Assembly (NCBI GenBank): GCA_025936825.1
Contig: JAICSO010000008.1
Location: forward strand, 124,001-188,000
Direction of reading: 5' to 3'
DNA length: 64,000 nt
Source of the DNA: Terriglobales bacterium
GTDB lineage: Bacteria > Acidobacteriota > Terriglobia > Terriglobales > Acidobacteriaceae
The position numbers and the translations under genes are program-made. The notes beneath the pieces are model-generated. The model was given only the letters and a program-made list of their open reading frames with translations. It had not been told where the DNA came from and did no database searches. This document shows, one piece after another, positions 46,378 to 50,083 of the stretch. Each line of letters opens with the position of its first letter. Position 1 is the first letter of the stretch.

Positions 46378-46962
46378 ATGAGAACAGGAACTTTCGTGCG
46401 AGTCGCCGTGGTTGCCATGGCGATGCTCTTCGCAGTATCGATGGCATCGGCGCAGTTGAACTCCGGCGCGCAGACGATTGCCTTGAATGCCAACCTGGCA
46501 GAATCGCTCACGCTGAGCCTTTCGGCTAACTCCGTCAACTTCACTTTGAGCGCGGGCAGCGCTACCAACGCGGGCAGCGCGAACATTACAGCTACGACCA
46601 AGTGGGTCCTGAAGCCGGGACGTACTGCGGTTGGCGTTTACGCCTATTTCGCCAGCGCTAGCGCGGCCCTGACGGGTACGGCCAGTGGCTCGACCATTCC
46701 TTCTTCCGCTTTCAGCATCACTGACACTGGCGCGGGCAGCGGCGGCGCGGGTACCTCCGGCGCACTGAGCAACACCGTGGCCTTCGGCGTGGCCAACTCT
46801 GGCTTGCAGATGGCCAACGTTTCCATCACGGGCGCGAACAAGAACGCCAGCCGTACCGATCAGATGGCGTTCAACATCGACCTGAGTGGCGGTACCTTGC
46901 CGCAACTTCCGGCTGACACCTACACCGGGACGCTGAACATTCAGGCCCAGGCGACTCCGTAA
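46378..46962 (+). CDS. Secreted fibre-subunit-like protein 1
   Basis: A 194-residue exported protein: signal peptide (VAVVAMAMLFAVSMASA), then a Ser/Ala/Thr-rich beta protein without any cysteine. The mature N-terminus (LNSGAQTIALNANLAESLTL) has the alternating pattern of a donor strand, and the C-terminus ends PADTYTGTLNIQAQATP, much like fimbrial subunits. It shares the whole layout with the next gene's product. Position upstream of a PapD-like chaperone suggests a surface fibre subunit. Alternatively it may be another secreted beta-sandwich. Confidence 0.75.
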   Translation: MRTGTFVRVAVVAMAMLFAVSMASAQLNSGAQTIALNANLAESLTLSLSANSVNFTLSAGSATNAGSANITATTKWVLKPGRTAVGVYAYFASASAALTGTASGSTIPSSAFSITDTGAGSGGAGTSGALSNTVAFGVANSGLQMANVSITGANKNASRTDQMAFNIDLSGGTLPQLPADTYTGTLNIQAQATP

Positions 46963-47044
46963 TTTCATCGCGATGATTGGCAGCTGAGGGTGGGTGCTGG
47001 GGCTCCCACCCTTGAGCTGTTCGGGGATGAATCGGAAACGAGCG

Positions 47045-47608
47045 ATGAAACTAAGACCACAATTCGGAGCAAGGCTAGCCACGATGGCGCTCGCCGTCCT
47101 TGTGCTGGCCGCCGGCGCACACGCGCAGGTGGTGAACTCCGGCGCCAGCACCATCAGCCTGAACGCGGTGCTGAACGACTCGATAACGGTTTCGCTTTCG
47201 TCCCATGCAGTCAACTTTACTTTGACCCAAGGCAGCGGCAGCAACCCCGGCAGCACGTCAATCACAGCGACGACAACATGGTTGCTGCGTCCGAATGTCG
47301 GCAGCCTGAAGCTGTACGCGTTCTTCGCAAGCTCAACGTCAGCCTTAACGGATGGCGCCGGTAACAACATTCCGTCAGCAGATTTTCAGATTTCCGACAA
47401 CGGCGGCGCATTCAATGCGCTGACTAACACGGTACCGTTTGGCGGTGCCAATGCCGGACTGCAGCTTTCTTCGACGCCGATCCTGGGCAACAACAAATCC
47501 GGAAGCCGAACCGACAACATGAATTTCAACATCAACCTGGTTCCGCTGCCGAACTTGCCGGCGGGCACTTACACGGGGACGTTAACGATCCAGGCGCAAG
47601 CGATCTGA
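47045..47608 (+). CDS. Secreted fibre-subunit-like protein 2 (paralogue)
   Basis: A 187-residue paralogue of the preceding protein. Matching segments: VNSGASTISLNAVLNDSITV, SSHAVNFTLTQGSGSNPGS, SITATTTWLLRPN, NTVPFGGANAGLQLSS, and PAGTYTGTLTIQAQAI at the end. Signal peptide at residues 10-27. It also lacks cysteine. ATG 47045 is preferred, with GGA eight bases before; ATG 47027 is possible. It lies 20 bp before the chaperone gene, so one transcript is likely. Confidence 0.75.
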   Translation: MKLRPQFGARLATMALAVLVLAAGAHAQVVNSGASTISLNAVLNDSITVSLSSHAVNFTLTQGSGSNPGSTSITATTTWLLRPNVGSLKLYAFFASSTSALTDGAGNNIPSADFQISDNGGAFNALTNTVPFGGANAGLQLSSTPILGNNKSGSRTDNMNFNINLVPLPNLPAGTYTGTLTIQAQAI

Positions 47609-47627
47609 TTCAGCAGGTGGGTGAAGT

Positions 47628-48434
47628 ATGAAAACGGGATTTCTCAGGGCGGCGTGCCGGCCTCTGGCCAGCGCGCTACTTGTATTGGTGCTGGGTGTAG
47701 CTGCGTCCGCCCAAACGGTGCGGCCGGTGATCAATGAACTGGTCGGCAACCCAGTGAAAGGGCGGGTCGAATATGTGAACGACAGCCTGACGCCGCTGAA
47801 CGTGGTGCTCGAGGCTAAAAGTTTCACGGTCGCGGAGTCGGGAGAGATCAGCTATCGGCCGCTGGACCCAGGTGTTCACGTGAAGTTCTCGGCAACCAGC
47901 TTCCGCATTCAGCCGCAGCAAACGTATTACGTTTTTTATGAGGCGACGTCGCCTCAAGTTCCGGCGTGGTTCGTGATTTACGCCAACTTCACCGGATTTG
48001 CGTTTCGTACGGCGCAGGGAATGAATGTGCGCTTGCAGTTGCCGCACACGGTCTACCTGCTGCCCAAGCAGTCGGTGGACAAGTCGGAACTGCATGTCAT
48101 TCGCGCCGATCTGGACGCAACCCAGAACAAGGTGACGATCGAAGTCGAGAACACTGGCGCGAACTTCGGGCGGATCCTGCAGACCCACTTGCTGTACTCG
48201 AAAAAGAAGCAGGAGGCGCCGGGCTTTCCGGTTTTTCCGCATAGCAAGCGGATTCTGGAAGTTCCGCTGGAGCAAAAGGCCGAAGGCGAGAACGTTCCAG
48301 TAGAGGTCTCTTTGGAGTTGGAGAAGTTCAAGCTGGAGCAGAAACTCGAGCGCCACAACTCCACGGAGGCGGTCTCGGCCGCGGCAACGTCCACGGTGGT
48401 TCCCGCGGGCTCACGAGGGGGCGACAAGCCTTAG
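47628..48434 (+). CDS. PapD-like periplasmic chaperone
   Basis: A 268-residue exported protein with signal peptide (LASALLVLVLGVAASA). It has the Ig-like fold of pilus chaperones: VKGRVEYVNDSLTPLNVVLE, FRIQPQQTYYVFYEATSPQV, PAWFVIYANFTGFAFRTAQG, then a second domain with ADLDATQNKVTIEVENTGAN. PapD chaperones give a strand to complete subunits before their assembly. A charged C-terminal extension (EKFKLEQKLERHNSTEA) is unusual. It sits two bases before the barrel gene. Confidence 0.78.
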   Translation: MKTGFLRAACRPLASALLVLVLGVAASAQTVRPVINELVGNPVKGRVEYVNDSLTPLNVVLEAKSFTVAESGEISYRPLDPGVHVKFSATSFRIQPQQTYYVFYEATSPQVPAWFVIYANFTGFAFRTAQGMNVRLQLPHTVYLLPKQSVDKSELHVIRADLDATQNKVTIEVENTGANFGRILQTHLLYSKKKQEAPGFPVFPHSKRILEVPLEQKAEGENVPVEVSLELEKFKLEQKLERHNSTEAVSAAATSTVVPAGSRGGDKP

Positions 48435-48439
48435 ATGTG

Positions 48440-50083
48440 ATGAGCCGGCGGACCCAATGCGCGCTTCTGTTTATGGTCGCCTTGATCACAGCGGGCGCTA
48501 GTGCGCAGGTTTTCCGGGTCCAGGGCGGAACGTCGACTATGTTGGACGCCCAAGGCGGCTCGGTCGAGTTCAAAGCTCCCAATTATGACGGCTCGTTCGG
48601 TCTTGGCTACTACAACGGCCAGGTAATGTTTGGCGGCGAGACCCGCTACAAATACCACGATTACACCGTACTCGCCGGGGATGACTCGGTCCGGTTTGAC
48701 CTTCCTACCGATGTTTTTGACCACAGTCATTACTTCTCCGCTCGCGGCGCGGGCATTACCACTTCCGACCATGACCGCAGCATGTATGCCTTCGCAGGTA
48801 CAACTTCCACCTGGCTTGGTACAGGATTTTTCAACGCTGCGACGAGTGACAGTCCAGTAGCAATTCTCTTCTATCAGCGTAAGCTGAGCGACAACGTGCG
48901 GTTCTTCTCGCGCAACATCCTGTCGAACCGGCAGACGCTCTTGCAGGGGCTGGAGTGGAGTCCGGAGAAGTGGGCGCATGCATCGGTCACTAGCGGCGTG
49001 GGTTCGAACCAAAAATACGGTGCGGCGGCGTTTGACGCTGAGACCGACAAGCTCGCCTTCAAGACCAGTTACGTCGTAACCGGAGATATGTTTCGCCGCG
49101 TGACCGTCATCAGCCCGATGAGTTCCGAGGTGAACAAAGGCAACGTGCAGATGCTGTATAAGCCGGACGAGCACATCAGCATCACCACCGGACATGAAAA
49201 CGTCCTGGAACCGGTCACGGTGGGCGCGCCCATGCAGGCGGCTTCAATCGAACAGATCTCGACCGACGTGCACATACAGCGCTTCTACTTCGGCACGGGC
49301 CTGTTTACGTCGCGGGCCTCGATCGGCAACTCGCGCGGGAAAAATCTTTACGTGGGCCGCAGGATTGGACGCCGCTTCGACGTGAGCACGAATTACTTCA
49401 ATAGCCATTCGGCGAACGGGTTCACTACAACCATTCTTTCGGGAGGGGTGCGCGAGAACTTCTCGTCGCGATTCAGCCTGCTGCAACTTATCTCGCGGAC
49501 GGCTGGCCAGACGACATACGCATTCGGCGGAGACTACATCAGCAATCGTCTCATGCTGAGCGTCAACTATCAGAATGTTTACTTGCCATTCCGTCCTAAT
49601 AATCCCTTTGAGCAGGCGCTAGCGTTGAATGCGTCATTTCGCGTGAGCGGACCACTGCAAATCACAGCAGCTTCAAACGTCGCACCTGACGGGCACTTGC
49701 GTTACTCGATTGGGGCGAGCACGTTCTTGTACAGGACGCGTGGCTTGGTAATGAAGGCCAACTCGCCAGACTCGTTTTCGATCTCGAAGTATGTGATCCA
49801 AGGATTGGTGCTTGATGATCAAGGCGCGCCGGTTGAGGGTGCAGCGCTGCACATCGGCAAGCAGGTCGCGTACACGGACAGCTCTGGTCATTTCATGCTG
49901 CGCTTCTCCAAGCGCGGATCGTTCCCGTTGAGCCTGGCGCCGGAGGAGTTCATGACCAACGGCGTGTACCAGGTAGTCTCAGCGCCGACTCAGGTGAATG
50001 CGGAATCAGAAGACAACGCTACGGATGTGCAGGTTGTGGTTCGCAGAGTCCCGCCACCGCAAGCAAAGCTGTACAACCAGTAG
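48440..50083 (+). CDS. Outer-membrane barrel with C-terminal Ig-like domain, possible reduced usher
   Basis: A 547-residue exported protein, almost all short amphipathic strands (FGLGYYNGQVMFGGETRYKY, YVGRRIGRRFDVSTNYFNS, LMLSVNYQNVYLPFRPNNPF), as in an outer-membrane barrel. The last ~80 residues form a carboxypeptidase-regulatory or usher-C-like Ig domain (GLVLDDQGAPVEGAALHIGK, AYTDSSGHFMLRFSKRGSFP). Full ushers (FimD) are about 800 residues with a plug and N-domain, which I cannot see here. Because it is adjacent to the chaperone (two-base gap) it may do the usher's job. Confidence 0.72.
   Translation: MSRRTQCALLFMVALITAGASAQVFRVQGGTSTMLDAQGGSVEFKAPNYDGSFGLGYYNGQVMFGGETRYKYHDYTVLAGDDSVRFDLPTDVFDHSHYFSARGAGITTSDHDRSMYAFAGTTSTWLGTGFFNAATSDSPVAILFYQRKLSDNVRFFSRNILSNRQTLLQGLEWSPEKWAHASVTSGVGSNQKYGAAAFDAETDKLAFKTSYVVTGDMFRRVTVISPMSSEVNKGNVQMLYKPDEHISITTGHENVLEPVTVGAPMQAASIEQISTDVHIQRFYFGTGLFTSRASIGNSRGKNLYVGRRIGRRFDVSTNYFNSHSANGFTTTILSGGVRENFSSRFSLLQLISRTAGQTTYAFGGDYISNRLMLSVNYQNVYLPFRPNNPFEQALALNASFRVSGPLQITAASNVAPDGHLRYSIGASTFLYRTRGLVMKANSPDSFSISKYVIQGLVLDDQGAPVEGAALHIGKQVAYTDSSGHFMLRFSKRGSFPLSLAPEEFMTNGVYQVVSAPTQVNAESEDNATDVQVVVRRVPPPQAKLYNQ

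Follow-up and report, generated by a model that had tools for sequence, protein, structure and literature searches.

A four-gene cassette of Acidobacteriota predicted to encode a stripped-down chaperone-usher fibre system

A group of four genes on the forward strand was examined within a 64,000-nucleotide stretch of DNA from Terriglobales bacterium (assembly GCA_025936825.1, contig JAICSO010000008.1, positions 124,001 to 188,000; hereafter the window). The first gene (46378–46962) encodes a putative fibre subunit of 194 amino acids and is followed by an 82-nt spacer (46963–47044) and a gene for a second, paralogous subunit (47045–47608, 187 amino acids from the ATG, with an in-frame GTG at 46994). 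A 19-nt gap separates this gene from one encoding a periplasmic chaperone of 268 amino acids (47628–48434), which is followed after 2 nt (5 nt from the ATG) by a gene encoding an outer-membrane barrel (48437–50083; 548 amino acids from the GTG, or 547 from the ATG at 48440). The coordinates, reading frames, and gaps given for these genes in an earlier note were thus confirmed. The two subunits share 54% identity. Judging from the sequences, all four proteins begin with a signal peptide ending near Ala-x-Ala-Gln. Both subunits are free of Cys, whereas the chaperone and the barrel have one Cys each, at residues 10 and 8, respectively, within the signal peptide, and the mature proteins therefore contain none. 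The genome encodes one copy of the chaperone and the barrel and two subunits, and no match to the usher family PF00577 or the chaperone family PF00345 was found anywhere in it. Promoter- and terminator-like sites were not above those in shuffled sequences.

The spacer between the two subunit genes folds into a long hairpin (MFE -41.2 kcal/mol, z -3.49 for 46957–47049). Of the spacers from nine other loci, six also folded better than shuffled sequences (L060, L061, L064, L066, L067, and L070; z -2.9 to -5.9, although a cut piece of L061 gave -1.3), whereas those of L062, L068, and L069 did not (z -1.2, -0.8, and +0.8). The hairpin was thus present in 7 of 10 spacers tested, with different sequence among relatives. 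We infer that it likely sets the ratio of subunit 1 to subunit 2, with more of subunit 1.

To determine whether the cassette is conserved, we searched 299 genomes of the class for the chaperone, using first a single sequence and then a profile, and both searches returned 33 genomes. Loci were fetched for 30 of these, including that of the window; the three remaining matches (genomes G076, G158, and G297) cover only about 150 residues. In all 30 loci, genes for a subunit, a chaperone, and a barrel lie side by side in that order. An initial scan of genome contigs with the barrel alone found nothing, but a second scan with a peptide pattern from the chaperone alignment resulted in 38 loci, all labelled as Acidobacteriota or groups within it, and all 38 have this order. 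Together these amount to about 55 distinct loci. Unrelated long ORFs would not be expected to keep this order in all fetched relatives, down to 26% identity of the chaperone. In 12 of the 38 loci a further subunit gene follows the barrel; in L080, L085, L092, L094, and L097 the extra subunits lack the usual N-terminal motif and are possible tip or base subunits. Only 1 of the 38 loci shares a flanking gene with the window among the six neighbours tested, suggesting that the cassette is not tied to one place, although contig ends limit this test. One contig (L069), titled Blastocatellia (subdivision 4), encodes a chaperone 58% identical to that of the window, reflecting either transfer or a wrongly binned contig. 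A search of the phylum with a barrel profile matched 65 of 347 genomes, but 60 of these match only the C-terminal part and the five full-length matches are all in the window's own family. No match was found in plasmids. Ordinary usher genes together with genes for PapD-type chaperones (L111–L114) were identified in 4 of the 299 genomes, none of which has the cassette described here. Conversely, none of the 33 genomes with the chaperone has a PF00577 match, but as only about 0.4 would be expected, this absence is uninformative.

Searches of Pfam, NCBIfam, and PDB sequences with single proteins gave no useful match for the chaperone or the subunits, and no Pfam usher, PapD, or pilin family matched at a meaningful level. 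We compared profiles. Against a profile of nine PapD-superfamily chaperones (eight from Acidobacteriota and FimC), the chaperone profile scored 96.8 (98.1% probability) over residues 10–248, whereas 40 column shuffles reached at most 17.9 and the reversed profile 14.7. By profile comparison, the protein is thus a distant member of the PapD superfamily with two domains. The start of domain 1 and the whole of domain 2 align well, and the donor-strand region also aligns. Archaic chaperones are reported to hold the subunit carboxylate with Arg89, Arg174, and Tyr196 of CsuC and to lack the classical Arg/Lys pair (PMC4654587). Arg174 corresponds to the invariant Arg182 of the present chaperone, but the other two positions appear to be Phe115 and Phe200, of which Phe200 is invariant; the middle of domain 1 could be assigned only by motif, and its alignment is uncertain. 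The classical pair, provided that it is correctly numbered as Arg8 and Lys112 of FimC, falls on Ile35 and Thr141. The domain 1 anchor residues of classical and archaic chaperones therefore appear not to be conserved by alignment, tentatively suggesting that the anchor may be of another kind.

The AlphaFold2 model of subunit 1 (pLDDT 83.3, 37 sequences) has a disordered stretch after the signal peptide (residues 25–39, mostly under pLDDT 50) and a confident Ig-like β-sandwich from residue 43 to 193, the last strand of which ends the protein. The N-terminal extension (about residues 26–41) has alternating hydrophobic residues (I34, L36, A38, and L40), conserved as a motif of the type tItLnAxLxES in most subunits. 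Foldseek returned no match under E 0.001, but ranks 1, 2, 4, 5, and 6 are CS17 or CfaB pilins. In a VIA structural comparison, 38 of the 50 best matches are chaperone-usher subunits (Z 6.5–7.9), most of them starting after their donor strand. These Z values are in a range that the tool calls common, and the other 12 matches, among them integrins, TasA-like fibres, and cannulae, reach similar values; a pilin-like fold is thus likely but not proven.

The model of the barrel (pLDDT 80.8, pTM 0.62, 30 sequences) has 26 strands by DSSP between residues 25 and 432, the exact number being unsettled, followed by one small C-terminal domain (about residues 452–540). Although the barrel has no Pfam usher match, the first 12 Foldseek matches are FimD or PapC, with other barrels following. 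The ten best VIA matches are likewise all FimD or PapC (Z 15.4–17.9, 314–402 residues aligned, rmsd 4.5–5.5 Å except for one at 15.8 Å), and 15 of the 50 matches in total are ushers; families absent from these lists are not excluded. The best match (Z 17.9, 331 residues, 4.8 Å) runs from model residue 24 to 431 against FimD 138–658. The best match to another family is OpdR (Z 15.3, 7.4 Å, 263 residues), so that by Z alone the gap to the lower ushers is small, and it is the aligned length and rmsd that set the ushers apart. Sequence similarity to ushers is weak, with profile scores of 26–35 against a maximum of 23.7 in 40 shuffles, and the register differs from the structural one by up to about two strands. 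In an attempt to locate the missing plug, 80 columns were excised at successive places in the usher profile; the alignment reached back past the plug site only for excisions at columns 210–260, but the score did not rise, so this is no proof. The segment comprising strands 5–7 scored 14–15 against ushers, without controls of its own, and the C-terminal domain alone scored 19.3 against a shuffle maximum of 19.9. The pore is thus usher-like by predicted fold, and common descent is likely but not shown.

Ushers are described as having five domains: an N-terminal domain that is the primary recruitment site, a pore, a plug that keeps the resting membrane sealed, and two C-terminal domains to which chaperone-subunit complexes are handed from the N-terminal domain (PMC3960871). 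In the present model the first strand starts at residue 25, no stretch between strands exceeds 18 residues, and 116 residues follow the barrel. In two alignments of 27 and 30 sequences, the barrel region spans 407–433 residues, the longest insertion is 25 residues, and at most 44 residues precede the barrel. The N-terminal domain, the plug, and one C-terminal domain are therefore absent throughout the aligned family. The remaining C-terminal domain matches CarboxypepD_reg in 27 of 27 barrels and, weakly, CooC_C in 8 of 27 (E up to 1, best 0.0031). None of the 27 matches PF00577 or PapC_C. By comparison, of three classical ushers from the same phylum, all match PF00577, two match PapC_N weakly, and one matches PapC_C weakly. 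Some relatives have longer C-terminal tails, and two of 27 match a SPOR domain at up to 5.5e-19 (L032:5885–7936 and L033:7693–9741, as assigned from the aligned tails).

Taken together, these data are best explained, with fairly good confidence, by a reduced chaperone-usher system. The earlier note had proposed chaperone-usher logic without a standard usher, and hence a reduced or separate surface-fibre system, which our results support, although that a fibre is made is unproven; its description of a short barrel in place of an usher requires correction, as the predicted fold is that of the usher pore itself. In the proposed mechanism, which is inferred, the chaperone lends a strand to the incomplete Ig fold of each subunit and delivers it to the pore, where the N-terminal extension of the next subunit replaces the chaperone strand and the fibre threads out. 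The single C-terminal domain, the only periplasmic part left that could receive the chaperone, or else the pore rim would then have to receive the chaperone-subunit complex, and the pore may be closed by that domain or by the fibre. It is about as likely as not that the cassette represents a further class of chaperone-usher pathway, known so far only from Acidobacteriota, in which a bare usher-like pore with one C-terminal domain and a changed subunit-carboxylate anchor does the whole job, and which would show that the N-terminal domain and the plug are not essential to the mechanism.

Other explanations were considered less likely. The barrel could be a pore that only exports single chaperone-held Ig proteins without polymerising a fibre, consistent with the lack of a recruiting N-terminal domain, plug, and second C-terminal domain, and with the subunit profile having identified only two subunits and no adhesin-like tip gene in this genome. 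However, the conserved N-terminal extension with alternating hydrophobic residues and the presence of two or more paralogues in many loci are as expected for a polymer, and one relative carries two subunit domains in tandem in one 357-amino-acid protein (L083:2254–3327), so we regard this alternative as unlikely. More doubtful still is that the barrel is a porin or transporter of other origin that happens to fold with about 24–26 strands and serves the chaperone and subunits only as an anchor. The lack of a significant sequence link to ushers and a C-terminal domain of the type also found at SusC/TonB-dependent proteins would fit this view, but usher pores are the best structural matches over the whole barrel, with lower rmsd in all but one than the other families (7 Å or more), and linkage to a PapD-superfamily chaperone is strict. 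Decay of a classical chaperone-usher operon might account for the loss of domains and for broken or short barrel frames in two contigs (L071 and L077), yet it is very improbable, as the same reduced shape is kept in all aligned relatives at 27–72% identity with invariant motifs.

A natural system retaining only the pore and one C-terminal domain would make it testable which usher parts are essential and how an unplugged pore is kept from leaking. The cassette also widens the known range, as the Pfam usher family is found in only 4 of 299 genomes of this class and the chaperone of this cassette in 33. A non-exhaustive literature search revealed no reduced usher, and archaic systems are listed in Proteobacteria, Cyanobacteria, and Deinococcus-Thermus (PMC4654587). 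With the archaic pathway (Csu of Acinetobacter), the cassette shares a chaperone of the same superfamily, and the Acidobacteriota PapD-type profile that matches the chaperone finds CsuC best in the PDB; it differs in the usher domains that are missing, in subunits without Cys, and apparently in two of the three carboxylate-anchor positions. Pilins of the alternative (CS1/CFA-I) pathway are the best matches to the subunit model in Foldseek, but the CooC_C matches seen in detail lie under the family cut-off, and the same domain matches CarboxypepD_reg better. With the type 1 and P pilus ushers FimD and PapC, the barrel shares the predicted pore fold over residues 24–431, but it has no PF00577, PapC_N, or PapC_C match and comprises 548 residues instead of the 878 of FimD of K-12.
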